This document shows, piece by piece, positions 35,829 through 43,792 of a stretch of DNA of 64,000 bases; position 1 is the first letter of the stretch; every line of letters starts with the position of its first letter. The stretch covers positions 1,054,001 to 1,118,000 of the forward strand of contig WGME01000003.1 in NCBI GenBank assembly GCA_016125225.1, given 5' to 3'. The translations under genes were made by a program, and so were the position numbers. This DNA comes from a bacterium. Lineage in GTDB: Bacteria > Planctomycetota > Planctomycetia > Planctomycetales > Planctomycetaceae. The notes beneath the pieces are model-generated. The model was not told the origin of the DNA. It did no database searches and saw only the letters and a program-made list of their open reading frames with translations.

Positions 35829-37607
35829 ATGCCTGCCTTGCGTACTGCTTCTGCTCTGTTCTGCCTGATTCTTATCGCGTCGCCAGCCCTCGCCGAAGAA
35901 CCGACCAGCGCTGTGGGTCCGCTGATGAAGCTGTTTGAGAGTGGGCGCTTGCCCGCTCAACGTCAGCCCGCGGTTGTGGAGATGATCTGCCAGCGTGGGA
36001 ATGCGAACGATTTACGGGTCGTTCTCGATCGCATTCTGCAGGCCGATGGATTTGTACCTGAATTGCGAATCCAGGCACTCGATTGGCTGGCCGATGCCGC
36101 GGAAACCCGTAAGGTGGTGCCCGCTGGCGATCTTTCGGGCCTGGCAGCATTGGTGATCGGCGACCGTGCGACGGGGCAGCCCCAGTTGCAGCGGCGTGCC
36201 ATCCGCTTGGCCGCCGAATGGAAGGTGGCCGCGGTGGCACCTGCCTTGCAAAAGCTGGCGACCAGCACCGAAGTCACCCCGGCTTTGCAGCGATCAGCGA
36301 TCGATGGCCTCATCACGATTGGTGACCCGGGCAGTCACCAGACTCTGAAAGAACTCGCAACGGCGGGCCATCCGTTGCCGGTGCGTATGCAGGCCACGGC
36401 TGGGATTGTGAGTTTCGATGCCTCTGCTGCTGCCACAGCAGCCGCTGCCGTGCTGCACGATGCGACCGCGAAAGACGCACTCGGTCCACTGCTCGACGCC
36501 TTCTTCCAGCATAAGGAAGGGGTCGACGGACTGGCCGCCGCAATCAAGGCCCATCCGCCCACAGCCGATGTCGCTAAGGTGGCATTGCGGTACATGTATT
36601 CGGTGGGGCGGAGCGATGCGGCCTTGTCGAATGTCCTCGGCAACATCGCCGGAATCAGTGCCGACCCCACGCCGCCCACGCCGGAAGAAGTGGCTCGCAT
36701 CGTTGATGAAGTCATCGCGAAAGGGAATCCGGCACGCGGAGAAGCAATTTTTCGTCGCAAAGATTTGAGCTGCATGAAGTGTCACAGCGTCAGCCGTGCC
36801 GGCGGCCAGGTCGGGCCCGATCTCAGCCCGGTCGGTGTTTCTTCGCCGGTCGATTATGTCGTCAACTCCATCCTGAACCCCAACTTGGCGGTGAAGGAAC
36901 AATACGTCACGAAAGTCTTCGAACTCACTAGCGGCAAAGTGCTGACGGGTGTGGTCATCGATCGCGATGATGTGCGGGTCAACATCCGCGATGTCACAGG
37001 GACCACAGTGACTATCCCTGTGGCCGATATTGAAGAGGAAGTTGAAGGCCGTTCCTTGATGCCGCAGGGTCTGACGAAATTTCTGACGCATGAAGAACTC
37101 GTCGATCTGGCCAAATTCGTTTCCGAGTTGGGCAAGCCCGGGCCGTATGTGCTCAACCCCGGTAGAACCATTCAGCGCTGGAGGCTGATGAACGAAGCGC
37201 CCGAAGAGCTGACATCGTCGGTGCCGCATCTGGAACACGTCCGCGAACTCATTCTGGGAAGTGATTCCACGCATTGGACTCCGGTCTACTCGCAGGTCGC
37301 GGGGGTTTTACCACTCAGTGAATTGCGAGAAAATGGCGAACCGTTCGTGCTGATTTTGAAGGGCGAAGTGCAGGTGCGGACCGCCGGGGCGGTGCATTTC
37401 CATCTCGACTGCACGGAACGAACGCAGGTCTGGGTCGACGCTCAACCGTTTGATGACGCGAAAGATTGGTCAGCCACGTTCGATCCTGGTGTGCATGCGG
37501 TGATCTTGCGGATCGAACTTTCTGATCGCCCCGATCCCACCCTCAAACTGGAAGTGAGCACCCCCAACGATTCTTCAGCAAAGTTCGAACTCGTCGGCGG
37601 CTATTGA
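35829..37607 (+). CDS. Exported HEAT-repeat c-type cytochrome (PVC-type haem-binding domain)
   Basis: This 592-residue exported protein begins with a signal peptide (about 1-22), followed by HEAT-like repeats to about residue 285. A cytochrome domain then starts at GNPARGEAIFRRKDLSCMKCH (haem motif CMKCH at 315-319) and continues through the family-typical SILNPNLAVKEQY, VLTGVVIDRDD and LTHEELVDLAKFVSELG. The last about 130 residues form an extra beta-rich domain. In related proteins this region is fused to the dehydrogenase propeller, which is encoded just upstream here, so the two products probably form one electron-transfer complex. Confidence 0.86.
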   Translation: MPALRTASALFCLILIASPALAEEPTSAVGPLMKLFESGRLPAQRQPAVVEMICQRGNANDLRVVLDRILQADGFVPELRIQALDWLADAAETRKVVPAGDLSGLAALVIGDRATGQPQLQRRAIRLAAEWKVAAVAPALQKLATSTEVTPALQRSAIDGLITIGDPGSHQTLKELATAGHPLPVRMQATAGIVSFDASAAATAAAAVLHDATAKDALGPLLDAFFQHKEGVDGLAAAIKAHPPTADVAKVALRYMYSVGRSDAALSNVLGNIAGISADPTPPTPEEVARIVDEVIAKGNPARGEAIFRRKDLSCMKCHSVSRAGGQVGPDLSPVGVSSPVDYVVNSILNPNLAVKEQYVTKVFELTSGKVLTGVVIDRDDVRVNIRDVTGTTVTIPVADIEEEVEGRSLMPQGLTKFLTHEELVDLAKFVSELGKPGPYVLNPGRTIQRWRLMNEAPEELTSSVPHLEHVRELILGSDSTHWTPVYSQVAGVLPLSELRENGEPFVLILKGEVQVRTAGAVHFHLDCTERTQVWVDAQPFDDAKDWSATFDPGVHAVILRIELSDRPDPTLKLEVSTPNDSSAKFELVGGY

Positions 37608-37613
37608 TCCCCA

Positions 37614-38180
37614 TCAAGGTCGCTTTCGCACGACTAACAAACGTGGAGGATGTTGTCGTTCCGGATCGACAGCGCAGCGTTTCCACTCGAATTCCGTTGC
37701 GGATAGTCCATCCATCCAGTTTTCCACGGCCGCAGTTTCCTGTAAGCCGCCCGGATGCCCTGTGTAAGCCACAACCGTAATGATTCCGCCTTTGCGGAGT
37801 AAACGGGCGGCTTGTTCCAACGCCATCACCGTCGTGGCTGCCTGTGTGATGATCAATTTCCCGGCACCGGGCAGATAGCCCAGGTTGAACATCACTGCAG
37901 CCAGCCGGCCGTGATATTCTTCGGGAATCCAGACCGCCAGATGGCAGTGGTCTTGCTCGATGAGCGTCACGTTGGAGCAACCAGCAGACCGTAAGCGGAA
38001 TGCAGTCTGCTCCAAGGCGAGCGGTTGCCGATCGCAGGCAAAGACTCGGCCGGTCGGTCCCACCTGCTGAGCCAGAAACAGGGTGTCATGCCCATTTCCG
38101 GCAGTGGCATCCACGGCGATATCTCCTGGTGATACCACGGCGGCAATTTCGTCGTGCGCGATCGATGTCAGGGGCCGCAT
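37614..38180 (-). CDS. mnmM: tRNA 5-aminomethyl-(2-thio)uridine methyltransferase MnmM (YtqB family)
   Basis: This 188-residue Rossmann-fold methyltransferase carries the YtqB/MnmM hallmarks: the SAM motif VDATAGNGHDTLFLA (about 23-37), FACDRQ, the characteristic MFNLGYLPGAGK (about 96-107), a Thr-rich TQAATTVMALEQA helix, YTGHPGG and a closing NPP-like HPPRLLVV. In Gram-positive bacteria this enzyme converts nm5U34 to mnm5U34 in the tRNA wobble position, replacing the methyltransferase half of MnmC. Its start overlaps by 13 bases the end of an FAD oxidoreductase gene that could supply the preceding oxidation step. Confidence 0.86.
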   Translation of the reverse strand: MRPLTSIAHDEIAAVVSPGDIAVDATAGNGHDTLFLAQQVGPTGRVFACDRQPLALEQTAFRLRSAGCSNVTLIEQDHCHLAVWIPEEYHGRLAAVMFNLGYLPGAGKLIITQAATTVMALEQAARLLRKGGIITVVAYTGHPGGLQETAAVENWMDGLSATEFEWKRCAVDPERQHPPRLLVVRKRP

Positions 38181-39250
38181 GCACTCAGCTCCGTCAACCG
38201 ATTGAGATCACAACGAGGGTCAAACACCGGTTCGCCGCGCATCACGGCGAGCAGTTCCCTCGCCAGTCGCGGAGCCTGCAGCGTTCCTTTTGATCCCAGC
38301 CCATTCAGGTAACCCAATTGTGACGAACTCGGGTGTCGGCCGATGACCGGATATTGTTGCAGATGAATGGGTCGCACGGCCGCATGATGAGCCACAATTT
38401 GGAAAGGCCTGCGTAAGACCTGTCGCAGCAACTGTTCGATTTGCTCCCGCCCTGCCGCTGTCGGTGTTTCATCGAGTTGTTGCCATTCATAAGTCGAACC
38501 CGCCTGATACAAACCGTCGGCCCGGCGAGTGAGCCAGATCCCACGGTGTACCACGCGCGATTCTGTCAGGCCGGAGATGTCGAGAGTCAGAATCTCGCCC
38601 TTGGCTGGTCGAAAACGCACTGCGGAAAACCAGGGATGCTGCTGGGCTTGTAGTCCCTGACAACTGATGAGCCACCGCGCAGTGACATTGTAGCGAGGCA
38701 ACATGACACCTTCAGATTGCAAGATAAGGCCATCGCTCCATGACAACGAGTCCTGCCGATAACATCCCAATCGATCAAAGAAATCACGCGAAGATTGCAG
38801 ATACGTAGGGACATCGAGTTGCCCCGCTGTCAGCATTTCCATATCGCAAGTGGCTGGCAAGAAGGACTCAGCATCGAGTTCGGGCTGTGGTGGCGATCGC
38901 GTGATTTGCTCAAATTCGGGGTCGTTGCGCCGACGTTCAAAAATGGCGAGTTCTTCTGCTGTTTCGAACCGACGGACCATCGTTGTTTCGCGGAAAAACG
39001 AGGTTCCGAGCTCAGCCTCTGCCCTTCGATAGTGAGCCAGCGCGGCAGACCAGAACGCCGGGAACTGCCAGCTGATGACGAGTCGCTGTCCGGTGATCGG
39101 CGTGATCAGGCCCGCGGAGATGCGCGAGGGTGTGTTAGACTCGTTCCGATCAATGATCAGCACCCGCAAACCGGCCCAATGAAATTGCCAGGCAACAGCG
39201 GTGCCTGCCAATCCCTGTCCGAGAATGATGGCGTCATAGGTCATGGACAT
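38168..39250 (-). CDS. FAD-dependent oxidoreductase, DAO family, possibly MnmC oxidase-like
   Basis: This protein of about 360 residues has a glutathione-reductase-type FAD fold: the opening dinucleotide motif AIILGQGLAGTAVAWQ, a strand ending in LIIDR with the ribose-binding acid, the SRISAGLITPITGQRLV segment, and a C-terminal GYLNGLGSKGTLQAPRLA with the FAD pyrophosphate motif. This DAO-type pattern is shared by glycine oxidases and the FAD half of MnmC, which removes the carboxymethyl group from cmnm5U34. The overlap with mnmM strongly suggests the tRNA role. The ATG at 39250 is preferred because GGGGA lies about nine bases upstream; ATGs at 39256 and 39244 are alternatives. Confidence 0.75.
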   Translation of the reverse strand: MSMTYDAIILGQGLAGTAVAWQFHWAGLRVLIIDRNESNTPSRISAGLITPITGQRLVISWQFPAFWSAALAHYRRAEAELGTSFFRETTMVRRFETAEELAIFERRRNDPEFEQITRSPPQPELDAESFLPATCDMEMLTAGQLDVPTYLQSSRDFFDRLGCYRQDSLSWSDGLILQSEGVMLPRYNVTARWLISCQGLQAQQHPWFSAVRFRPAKGEILTLDISGLTESRVVHRGIWLTRRADGLYQAGSTYEWQQLDETPTAAGREQIEQLLRQVLRRPFQIVAHHAAVRPIHLQQYPVIGRHPSSSQLGYLNGLGSKGTLQAPRLARELLAVMRGEPVFDPRCDLNRLTELSACGP

Positions 39251-39296
39251 GACCATTGTTCCCCATCGAACACGGGGGGAGACTTTGCCGGAGTGA

Positions 39297-40634
39297 TCAC
39301 AAATCGATTCCCAGTTCCTCGATCTTGCGATAGAGGCTGGAAAGGCCCATGCGCAAGCGGCGGGCGGCTTCGCGCTTGTCAGGATACTCCCGCAGCACCC
39401 GCTCGATATGCAACCGTTCGTAGTGCCGAAGCGCCGACCGGAGATCATCGGTGTCGGGCAAGGGTTGCGAGGCCGTCACCAGATCGGGTGGCAAATCCTG
39501 TTGGCGGATCTGGTTGCCGTCACACATCATCACGGCCCGTTCGATGGCATTATCCAACTGCCGTACGTTGCCTTTCCAACTGGATGCGATCAGGGCACGA
39601 ATGGTTTCGCCTGTGGCTCCGGAAACCAGTTTGCCCATTTCGCGGCTGTGGCGGGCAATGAAGAAATCGACCAGTTCCGGGATGTCGTCGAGCCGTTCGC
39701 GTAGGGGCGGAATGCGGATCTTGACACCATCCAGCCGATAAAACAGGGCTTCATCAAAACGCCCTTCCGCGACCTCTGCGGACAGATCCCGTGTGGTTGC
39801 GGCGACAATCCGTGCCCGTTGCGTGAAGGGTTCCGATGCTCCCGAGGGCAAGACTTCGCCATACTCAATCGCCCGCAGCAGCTTCGCCTGGGTCGGTAAG
39901 GGCAGGTGTGTGACCTCGGCCAGAAAGACGGTCCCTTCACCCGCATTCCGGAAGATCCCCGCCTGCTCCGGAACCTGTGACGAAGCGGTTGAACCAAAGA
40001 GCTGAGCTTCGAGAAGTTCGACAGGGCGCGTCGAACAGTTCAAAGCCAGAAACCGTTCCTGTTTCTTTGGTCCCCAACGATGAATCGTGCGGGCAAATAG
40101 TTCCTTACCAGTACCCGATTCCCCCACCAGCAGTACATTGGCATTCGTGATCGCAACGCGACGGATCGTTTCCAGAACTTCCTGCAACGCCTTGCTGGAA
40201 CCAATCACTTCTTCCTGATCATCGCGGCGAGACAATTCGCGACGTAACGCCTGATTTTCCTGAAACAACTGGCGATACTGAAACAGTCGCTGCAGCTTAT
40301 TGGCCAGATCGTCAAAAATCACCGGCTTGACGAGATAGTCGAACGCCCCGGCTTTGAAGGCCTCCACAGCATTCTCCACCGTGGCATAAGCCGTGATGAT
40401 CAGCCCCGAAACATTCGGGTTGTACTGCAGCAGCCGGCGTAACAGGTTAACACCGTCGCCATCGGGGAGTTGCACATCGCAAATGGCCACCTGGAAGTCG
40501 CGATCGCGAATGGCTTTGACGGCATCGGCGATGGTACCGGCTGCAATGACGTCATAGCCATCATCCGTCAGGAACTCGCGCAACGAGGTGCGAATGATCT
40601 CTTCATCTTCCACGATCAGGACAGAGCGCTTCAC
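39297..40634 (-). CDS. NtrC-type response regulator with degenerate AAA+ domain
   Basis: This 445-residue regulator has a receiver domain (about 1-120; phosphoacceptor Asp53, Lys103), an AAA+ domain (about 140-375) and a Fis-type helix-turn-helix (about 400-445, REAARRLRMGLSSLYRKIEELG). Walker A (GESGTGKE, 171-178) is intact. The GAFTGA loop that contacts sigma-54 is missing: the segment after LFG (215-225) is short and unrelated. Walker B reads FLAE (237-240), with Ala at the position of the catalytic Asp, and the first arginine-finger position in FDEALFYR is Asp294. It is therefore probably not a sigma-54 activator and may not hydrolyse ATP. Its start overlaps the kinase stop as ATGA. Confidence 0.9.
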   Translation of the reverse strand: MKRSVLIVEDEEIIRTSLREFLTDDGYDVIAAGTIADAVKAIRDRDFQVAICDVQLPDGDGVNLLRRLLQYNPNVSGLIITAYATVENAVEAFKAGAFDYLVKPVIFDDLANKLQRLFQYRQLFQENQALRRELSRRDDQEEVIGSSKALQEVLETIRRVAITNANVLLVGESGTGKELFARTIHRWGPKKQERFLALNCSTRPVELLEAQLFGSTASSQVPEQAGIFRNAGEGTVFLAEVTHLPLPTQAKLLRAIEYGEVLPSGASEPFTQRARIVAATTRDLSAEVAEGRFDEALFYRLDGVKIRIPPLRERLDDIPELVDFFIARHSREMGKLVSGATGETIRALIASSWKGNVRQLDNAIERAVMMCDGNQIRQQDLPPDLVTASQPLPDTDDLRSALRHYERLHIERVLREYPDKREAARRLRMGLSSLYRKIEELGIDL

Positions 40635-42016
40635 GGTGTCATGACCTCTTCTACGGGTTCAGGGTCGAGTGAGTGCGAAGTGACGGGCAACATATCGGGG
40701 AGTTGCTGGAGTTCGTTGTTGGTCAACGAAACACAGAACGTGGTTCCGTGCGGCGACGTCGCGGTCAATTCCAACCGGCCGTGCAGTTCCTGCTCAACGA
40801 TATTGCGGCAGACAAACAGCCCTAACCCGGTGCCCGTTTCTTTGGTCGTAAAATAGGGCTGGAAGACCCGCTCGCGATGTTCAGGAGCAATCCCGCGGCC
40901 GGTATCGATCACTTCGACACGCAACCAGCCGGAGACCAGCGACGTCCGCAATTCGATGGTGCTCCCCTCGGGAGTGGCATCCATGGCGTTCAGAATCAGA
41001 TTGAGAATCACCTGCACGAATTGATCGCTGACCAGTCGCAACGCGGGTAACCCTGTGGCATACGTGATCACCATCCGTTTGCCTTTGCGGCGTTTGTAGT
41101 ACTTGGCGATATTGAGCGCGGCATCGATCGCGCGATGCACATCGGTCAGCGATGCTGTCGAACTCGCGGGACGGCTGAAATCGACGAGTTCTCTGAGCGT
41201 ACGCTGGATACGCCGCAGTTGATCATCGACCATGCTGAGCCGTTCCTGCGTGTGGTCATCCAGATTGCGTCGTTTCAGCAGTTGTACCAGGGAACTGATG
41301 GCTGCTAATGGGTTACCGACTTCGTGGGCAATTCCGGCTGCGAGCAGGCCAAATGCGGCTTGCTTTTCCTGCTGCACAATCATCGCCTGAGTTTCCTGCA
41401 GCTCTCGCGTTCGTTCATTGATGCGTTCTTCCAGCGAGTACTGATTCTGTTGCAGGGCGAGATTCAATTCTTCGAGTCGCTCACTGGCGTGCTTCAATCG
41501 GGCCGACAGCGATGTGCTGGCCCAGGCGACCCAGGCCATAAAGATCGGTGTCAGCACCAATGACGAAGATTCCTCGGAGGTGACCGTGCCCTGCATCACC
41601 GCGACAGACCCATAACTGGCCACATGCAAAGCCAATGTGCAGTAGGTGACTGCGGGAGCAAAGCGAATGGCGCTCACCAGCAGCGAGAGAAAATAGTAAA
41701 AGCGGAAGGCACTGAGCACGCCGCCATCGAACTGGCAGAGCAAGCCAATGAACATCGCCTCCATCGCGGAAGTGAAGAGGGGGTAATCCGCGAGGAAGAC
41801 GGTGCCCCGGACACTGAAGTAGGTGTCACACAAAGCATAAGCGGCGCCGACTGCGAGAATGGCGTTCAATGGTGCGGTGGAACCATTCGTTCCCAGGAAA
41901 TTCACGAGGCCGTAACCGACACAGATTCCGAACCAGCGAATCCGAATGGTGATCGCCTGGGCCGAAAGTTCCCAATCAAATTCGTTATCTCTGGTAAGAA
42001 GTGCTGCAGAAGACAT
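40631..42016 (-). CDS. Membrane sensor histidine kinase
   Basis: This 461-residue kinase starts with about five or six membrane helices (about 25-175), followed by a coiled coil (about 170-215) and the dimerisation/phosphoacceptor domain with AAGIAHEVGNP (His231). The HATPase domain has NLILNAMDATPEG (N box), DTGRGIAPEH (G1), GTGLGLFVC (G2) and TTFCVSL near the end. No large sensor domain is seen, so the signal is probably sensed in or at the membrane. It is translationally coupled to the following response regulator, and together they form a two-component system with unknown input. Confidence 0.9.
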   Translation of the reverse strand: MSSAALLTRDNEFDWELSAQAITIRIRWFGICVGYGLVNFLGTNGSTAPLNAILAVGAAYALCDTYFSVRGTVFLADYPLFTSAMEAMFIGLLCQFDGGVLSAFRFYYFLSLLVSAIRFAPAVTYCTLALHVASYGSVAVMQGTVTSEESSSLVLTPIFMAWVAWASTSLSARLKHASERLEELNLALQQNQYSLEERINERTRELQETQAMIVQQEKQAAFGLLAAGIAHEVGNPLAAISSLVQLLKRRNLDDHTQERLSMVDDQLRRIQRTLRELVDFSRPASSTASLTDVHRAIDAALNIAKYYKRRKGKRMVITYATGLPALRLVSDQFVQVILNLILNAMDATPEGSTIELRTSLVSGWLRVEVIDTGRGIAPEHRERVFQPYFTTKETGTGLGLFVCRNIVEQELHGRLELTATSPHGTTFCVSLTNNELQQLPDMLPVTSHSLDPEPVEEVMTP

Positions 42017-42301
42017 CGATCGAGTTCAGTGCCGGTTCGCGGACGGTGCACCAGAATGGTATGGTATGACGGGATTATAGGCGGAATGTGTGCGAACATC
42101 AGCCATCGACTGGGACAATCAAACCGAATCTGTCGAACTCGCTGGTGATGACGATTTTGCGTTCCCGCTGAAGTCGGCCGTTGTTCCGGGCCGATAATGG
42201 ACAAGTTGCACAATTGGCCGCTTGGTGCTCGACCCGTTTCTGCCAGAAACGCGACCGACACCCACGGCCTTGCGTCAGCGCTCACGAAGGCGAAAAGCGG
42301 C

Positions 42302-43792
42302 ATGCGGATTGTGATTGCCAGTTCCGAAGCAGTTCCCTTTTCCAAAACGGGGGGACTGGCTGATGTGGCGTCTTCGCTTTCCAAGGCGTTGGCCGAGGCG
42401 GGGCACGAAGTCTGGCTGGTCACGCCGTACTATCCACAGGAACTAGCCAAACTGGGAGACCGTGCTCCGAAACTGGAGCCTCTCAACCTGACCTTGCCAA
42501 TCGCCGTGGGAACGCATCTGGTCACGGCGCAGGTCTACAAAACGATGCTGCCCGGTTCGAATGTGTCGACGTTCCTCATCGATCAACCGGAGTATTTTGA
42601 TCGCCCGAGTTTATACGTCGACCGTCTGGGAGATTATCGCGATAACTGCGAACGGTTTGTCTTCTTCAGCCGCAGTGTGATTCAACTGGCGGAAGCCCTG
42701 CATTTCGAACCCGACATTATTCATGCCAATGACTGGCAGACCGCGTTGATTCCCGCGTTGCTGCAGATCGAAGGGGGCATGCGCATCGGGCTGGGGCAGA
42801 CGGCTTCGGTCTTCACCATCCACAATCTCGCGTTTCAGGGTCAATTCTGGCACTGGGACATGCTGCTTACGGGACTCGACTGGAAGTACTTCAACTGGCG
42901 CCAAATGGAGTTCTTCGGCAACCTGAACCTGATGAAGACGGGCATCATCTTCTCGGACATGATCACGACGGTCAGCCCGACTTATGCCCGGGAAATTCAG
43001 ACGCCGGAATTTGGTTGTGGTTTGAACGGTGTGTTATCGTCACGCCGCGATGTTCTGGTGGGCATTCTGAATGGGGTCGATACGGAGGACTGGAATCCCG
43101 CCCACGACCGTTATTTGCCGAAGACCTATGACGTTCACACTGTCGATGTGGGCAAAGCGGCCTGCAAAGCTGAGTTGCAGAAGCGACTGGGCTTACCGAT
43201 TTCTGCTGATAAGGCCGTGTTCGGTCTCGTTTCGCGGCTGACGGGTCAGAAGGGGCTCGACCTGGTCATGGGGAGCACCCACGACCTCATGCGCCACGAT
43301 GTGCAACTAGTCGTGCTGGGAACCGGCGAACCGGGTTATGAAGCGGGGCTGCAACGTCTGGCACAAGAATTCCCCGAGAAAATCGCGGTCACCATCGGGT
43401 ACAACGAAGAACTGGCCCACCTCATCGAAGCGGGGTCGGATATCTTTTTGATGCCCAGTCAGTACGAGCCATGTGGCCTCAACCAGATGTATAGCCTGAT
43501 GTATGGGACCGTGCCCATCGTTCGATCGGTGGGAGGGCTGGCTGATTCCGTCGTGGATGCCACGGAAGGAAATGTCGCGAACAGTACGGCGAATGGCTTT
43601 TCGTTTCACGAATACCGCAGCGATGTCCTCTTCCGGCAAGTCTGTCGGGCGTTGGGACTCTACCTGGATCGCCGGACCTGGCGACAGTTGCAACGCACGG
43701 GGATGGAACGCGACTGGTCGTGGAAACGGAGTGCAAAAGATTACGTGGCAGCCTATCAGCGCGCCATCCAGAAACGCCGTCATGACCGGTGA
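42302..43792 (+). CDS. glgA: Glycogen (starch) synthase
   Basis: GlgA extends alpha-1,4-glucan chains from ADP-glucose. The 496-residue GT5 protein has the substrate-binding KTGGLADV (15-22), HANDWQTAL, VFTIHNLAFQG, GILNGVDTEDWNP, VSRLTGQKGLDL and the C-terminal MPSQYEPCGLNQMYSLMYGTVPIVRSVGGLADSV region (given here in outline). The start is set at MRIVIASSE, the normal GlgA opening; an upstream extension to 42197 is not conserved-looking. galT follows 38 bases downstream, pointing to a small sugar-nucleotide operon. Confidence 0.95.
   Translation: MRIVIASSEAVPFSKTGGLADVASSLSKALAEAGHEVWLVTPYYPQELAKLGDRAPKLEPLNLTLPIAVGTHLVTAQVYKTMLPGSNVSTFLIDQPEYFDRPSLYVDRLGDYRDNCERFVFFSRSVIQLAEALHFEPDIIHANDWQTALIPALLQIEGGMRIGLGQTASVFTIHNLAFQGQFWHWDMLLTGLDWKYFNWRQMEFFGNLNLMKTGIIFSDMITTVSPTYAREIQTPEFGCGLNGVLSSRRDVLVGILNGVDTEDWNPAHDRYLPKTYDVHTVDVGKAACKAELQKRLGLPISADKAVFGLVSRLTGQKGLDLVMGSTHDLMRHDVQLVVLGTGEPGYEAGLQRLAQEFPEKIAVTIGYNEELAHLIEAGSDIFLMPSQYEPCGLNQMYSLMYGTVPIVRSVGGLADSVVDATEGNVANSTANGFSFHEYRSDVLFRQVCRALGLYLDRRTWRQLQRTGMERDWSWKRSAKDYVAAYQRAIQKRRHDR

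Follow-up and report, generated by a model that had tools for sequence, protein, structure and literature searches.

An FAD oxidoreductase clade fused to or encoded beside MnmM: a candidate cmnm5U34 oxidase in Planctomycetota and other phyla

Introduction

Which enzyme would oxidise cmnm5U34 in bacteria that methylate the wobble uridine with MnmM? The question is raised by a planctomycete locus in the window, the whole 64,000-nucleotide stretch of DNA analysed here, where an mnmM gene overlaps a gene for an FAD-dependent oxidoreductase. Cho et al. 2023 (PMC9976899) described as unknown the MnmC(o)-like enzyme that accompanies MnmM and, in the Firmicutes they compared, observed no operon uniting the two enzymes; they considered that Bacteroides, alpha-Proteobacteria and others with an orphan MnmC(m) likely have an MnmC(o)-like enzyme. 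An earlier note on this DNA had guessed, from the overlap alone, that the pair is a complete MnmC route in split form. For the oxidase step in the Gram-positives Bacillus and Streptococcus, Jaroch et al. 2024 reportedly proposed the radical SAM enzyme MnmL (YtqA).

Results

Gene layout at the mnmM locus

Both genes lie on the reverse strand. A DAO-type FAD oxidoreductase of 360 amino acids, for which we propose a role as cmnm5(s2)U34 oxidase, is encoded at 38168..39250, and a ytqB-type mnmM gene at 37614..38180 encodes a candidate tRNA nm5(s2)U34 methyltransferase of 188 amino acids. The two reading frames overlap by exactly 13 bases (38168..38180, reverse strand), as the earlier note had read them. 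The FAD gene could equally well start at a second in-frame ATG, at 39256. The sequence GGAG is found 8 bases 5' of the mnmM ATG, within the FAD gene, and the overlap probably reflects translational coupling. A 13-base overlap by itself is a usual operon feature; it is the conservation of the pairing that exceeds chance.

Directly upstream of the FAD gene, also on the reverse strand, are the genes for a response regulator of the sigma-54 type (39297-40634) and for a histidine kinase (40631-42016). The response regulator gene is 46 bases from the FAD gene, with which it may share a transcript. A regulatory link to this two-gene system was considered and rejected, because the response regulator had no strong homologue at the other loci searched. 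No Rfam elements were found in 37000-42500.

MnmM and the rest of the pathway in the genome

The product of 37614-38180 is MnmM by family assignment: its score against NF053511, the NCBIfam equivalog for MnmM, is 185.3 bits (cut-off 135), and its nearest PDB relatives are 4pon and 8h0s. Alignment to 8h0s indicates that it keeps D34, N101, Y104, K110, Y141 and H144, each of which inactivates the Bacillus subtilis enzyme when mutated (PMC9976899). The position of K11 is apparently occupied by histidine, by extrapolation from the alignment. Methyl transfer from SAM to nm5(s2)U34, giving mnm5(s2)U34, is the predicted activity.

The gene content that the earlier note had expected of such a route, mnmE and mnmG without mnmC, was found in the window's genome. 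MnmG is present (823 bits), and MnmE is full length with a score of 222 bits, slightly under the cut-off of 252.6. MnmC2 was not found in this genome and no protein in it exceeds the MnmC1 cut-off, the best sub-threshold match being a true ThiO, which is encoded separately (G000:C6:58852-59826) and scores 264.6 bits, over the ThiO cut-off. The model for MnmL/YtqA, TIGR01212 by NCBIfam naming, had no match over its cut-off of 180 bits in this genome, where the best score is 33 bits, or in any of the 27 members of its family. Since MnmM is present, MnmC2 is absent and neither MnmC1 nor MnmL is found over cut-off, MnmM needs some other oxidase; the FAD gene that overlaps it is our candidate for this role.

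Other planctomycetes differ in their gene content. Twelve genomes from other families of the class (G121, G167, G205, G266, G321, G327, G333, G350, G353, G365, G377 and G389) encode an MnmL/YtqA-family radical SAM protein over cut-off; none of them has MnmM over cut-off, and MnmC2 was found only in G266. One planctomycete, G373, has a full-length MnmG and no MnmE match at E 1e-30, possibly owing to assembly gaps.

Family, fold and conserved residues of the FAD protein

The FAD protein is matched by Pfam DAO at 75.9 bits and fits no curated family. Its scores against ThiO (TIGR02352, 61.1 bits, cut-off 250.8) and MnmC1 (TIGR03197, 41.9 bits, cut-off 174.2) are both far below the thresholds. A closer match to ThiO, which the earlier note had named as evidence against its proposal, is therefore found in the letter (61 against 42 bits), but at scores far below either cut-off, in an order that flips in a close relative, and in a genome with a ThiO of its own. 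The relatives of the FAD protein that were scanned against the MnmC1 model score 54-88 bits.

An AlphaFold model of the protein, built with 78 relatives, has a mean pLDDT of 95.7 and a glycine-oxidase/MnmC1 fold. The folds nearest to it are those of glycine oxidases (Z 36-37), CmiS2 (36), MnmC (33; 33.4 for structure 3ps9) and iminodiacetate oxidase (33). Glycine oxidases rank slightly over MnmC1 in both profile and structure searches and also provide the best PDB match. IdaA and CmiS2 are about 21% identical to the FAD protein, above the identity of MnmC. N-substituted glycines are the substrates of CmiS2 and iminodiacetate oxidase, and theirs is the type of bond that has to be broken in cmnm5U.

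R293 is invariant in 81 of 81 members of the FAD family and aligns with R302 of B. subtilis glycine oxidase and R567 of MnmC, the arginine that binds the substrate carboxylate. The family also has in common with MnmC1 an LGS[KR]G motif and an aromatic residue at 254, and the ThiO sequences that align at the motif site read GHYRNG. On a tree the members of the FAD family group together in one clade (support 100) that excludes the MnmC1 and the four ThiO sequences sampled. MnmC1 is placed as its sister at an SH-aLRT of 90, yet a grouping with ThiO is not rejected (p-AU 0.57), and sequence alone gives MnmC1 no edge over ThiO as its kin. The protein belongs to a separate clade and is not an MnmC C-terminal domain; the score below cut-off, the separate clade and the equivocal sister group do not establish orthology with MnmC1. 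The evidence as a whole points to a protein that would work like MnmC1 from within a clade of its own, and we do not claim membership of MnmC1. A search of plasmid records gave one match, a ThiO-like Halomonas protein.

Fusion and adjacency of the FAD gene and mnmM

A profile search was carried out across 84,980 species genomes and the best 80 loci were analysed. Among these 80, the FAD domain is fused to MnmM in 10 loci (L073, L074, L079, L080, L098, L112, L113, L114, L125 and L131, each a single reading frame), mnmM lies immediately downstream of the FAD gene in 27, and it is found within a few kb in 3. Nine of the fused loci are from Planctomycetota and one is from Akkermansiaceae (Verrucomicrobiota). 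Most genomes of the window's family have the two genes side by side, and in G283, G299 and G339 they form one reading frame. Fusions thus amount to at most 13 genomes (12 Planctomycetota and one Verrucomicrobiota), as the two genome collections may repeat species. In the fused proteins the FAD domain is N-terminal and MnmM is C-terminal, and the key residues of both enzymes are kept. The fused state requires 7 changes on the tree, which argues that fusion is not one inherited accident.

The adjacent loci include nine from Proteobacteria, among them the Rhizobiales IMCC20636 (L111, a complete genome) and the Methylococcales L135 and L139, with Alphaproteobacteria represented. The comparison with other phyla that the earlier note had suggested thus found FAD proteins fused to or beside MnmM in Verrucomicrobiota, Alphaproteobacteria and Methylococcales; the arrangement is present in a planctomycete, as had been proposed, but is not confined to planctomycetes.

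Contigs of metagenome-assembled genomes (MAGs) may carry wrong taxon labels. One such contig (L087) is labelled Bacteroidales, but its FAD protein groups with those of planctomycetes and its genome has MnmM; it is likely misbinned or transferred. A distant planctomycete, G259, encodes a 720-amino-acid protein (L222:934-3093, forward strand) with MnmM at residues 523-676, in which the approximately 520 N-terminal residues have no Pfam or NCBIfam match. This may be a fusion of MnmM to a partner of no recognised family.

Co-occurrence of the two genes in Planctomycetota

Among 392 Planctomycetota genomes, 22 carry both the FAD gene and mnmM, none the FAD gene only, five mnmM only and 365 neither (Fisher 1e-31, a value inflated by kinship). 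The window's family of 27 genomes divides into 22 with both genes and five with neither, and MnmG and MnmE are matched in all 27. In three genomes (G024, G274 and G315) the FAD gene and mnmM are both present but far apart, so their co-occurrence is more than linkage. The neighbourhoods of mnmM in the five planctomycetes that carry it without this FAD family contain neither MnmL nor an FAD gene.

The five members of the window's family that have neither the FAD protein nor MnmM (G087, G105, G257, G357 and G369) have MnmG and MnmE matches, and are predicted to stop at cmnm5U.

Association of the FAD gene with MnmC2

In two Bacteroidota loci, and in these two only, the FAD gene directly adjoins a gene for MnmC2 (L144 and L142; 199 and 202 bits against NF033855, cut-off 136). 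A wider set of 40 genomes bears the FAD gene without an adjacent mnmM. Twelve of these encode MnmM elsewhere and 16 have a strong MnmC2, with no genome having both strongly; in the 12 others, distant genomes of which several are incomplete MAGs, no methyltransferase was recognised. Where MnmM is absent, the only recurrent neighbours of the FAD gene are MnmC2 (two members) and cytidylate kinase (four). Pairing with either of two unrelated nm5U methyltransferases suggests that the FAD enzyme most plausibly makes nm5U.

Discussion

The FAD protein and MnmM very probably make up a split functional equivalent of the bifunctional MnmC and a complete mnm5U route, with the FAD protein as an alternative cmnm5U34 oxidase. 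What had been a guess from the overlap is now backed by the fusions, the co-occurrence, the adjacency to MnmC2 and the gene content of the pathway, which together support the predicted oxidase activity. From the gene layout, the fusions, the co-occurrence, the fold and the conserved residues we infer the substrate, the reaction and a direct coupling of the two steps. MnmE and MnmG would make cmnm5(s2)U34 in tRNA. The FAD protein would oxidise its N-carboxymethyl (glycine) arm at the alpha carbon to an imine, hydrolysis of which would yield nm5(s2)U34 and glyoxylate, and MnmM would then methylate nm5(s2)U34 with SAM to mnm5(s2)U34. The proposed chemistry follows that of MnmC (PMC3648344).

Three other explanations were weighed. 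The one that fares best, and that we still regard as very improbable, makes the FAD protein an oxidase of amino acids or N-substituted glycines whose substrate is a small metabolite, as with iminodiacetate oxidase (IdaA) and CmiS2, and which is merely co-transcribed with mnmM. IdaA and CmiS2 are indeed among the closest folds and exceed MnmC in identity, but against this reading stand the fusion to MnmM, the adjacency across phyla, the joint absence with MnmM in the window's family, and a second partner, MnmC2, that works at the same step. It is also very improbable that the protein serves another step of the same wobble-uridine pathway, for example one with another xm5U side chain or another product. 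Gene context ties it to the pathway without naming the step, and 12 of the 40 distant genomes with the FAD gene have neither methyltransferase; the fold, however, together with the invariant arginine for the carboxylate and an LGS[KR]G motif like that of MnmC1, fits the removal of an N-carboxymethyl group, and two unrelated methyltransferases that share nm5U as substrate point to the step that makes it. Least probable of all is a ThiO of thiamine synthesis placed beside mnmM by chance of operon layout, favoured by the score order of the single-protein scan and by glycine oxidases as best PDB and fold matches, but discarded in view of the separate true ThiO in the genome, the score far under cut-off and the place of the family on the tree outside the four ThiO sequences sampled, and leaving the recurrent fusion to a tRNA methyltransferase without explanation.

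As a probable split equivalent of MnmC, the pair resembles the E. coli enzyme (MnmC2 + MnmC1) in combining a DAO-fold FAD oxidase with a SAM methyltransferase in one polypeptide or operon, and its candidate oxidase has in common with MnmC1 the LGS[KR]G motif and the substrate arginine. It differs in that the methyltransferase is MnmM and not MnmC2, the fusions have the reverse domain order with the FAD domain first, and the proposed oxidase falls in a clade of its own and scores under the cut-off of the MnmC1 family. With the MnmL-MnmM route of Bacillus and Streptococcus it shares the methyltransferase and the position in the pathway; the oxidase step there is assigned to the radical SAM protein MnmL/YtqA, which is absent over cut-off from the window's genome and the family sample. 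ThiO, CmiS2 and IdaA resemble the FAD protein in fold and probably in chemistry, which would take place at the carbon of an amino-linked glycine, but their substrates are small molecules and the aligning ThiO sequences are without LGS[KR]G. We know of no tie between these three enzymes and tRNA methyltransferases.

No description of the MnmM-FAD pair was found in the literature searched, the full text of Jaroch et al. 2024 lying outside that search. The abstract of that study is said to mention fusion proteins and alternate arrangements, and part of the present finding may already be noted there.

The partner of this glycine-oxidase-like FAD clade is MnmM in Planctomycetota, Verrucomicrobiota and some Proteobacteria; in Bacteroidota it is MnmC2. 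It is reasonably likely that the clade is, more generally, the missing cmnm5U34 oxidase, working with MnmM in Planctomycetota, Verrucomicrobiota, some Alphaproteobacteria and Methylococcales, and with stand-alone MnmC2 in Bacteroidota. If so, MnmC1 and MnmL would be joined by a third solution to this step, one exchanged freely between two methyltransferases that are unrelated. Being widespread, joined to MnmM in fusions and located next to MnmC2 at some loci, the clade offers a directly testable candidate for the oxidase gap in several phyla, and the wobble-uridine pathway appears to be built from interchangeable parts.
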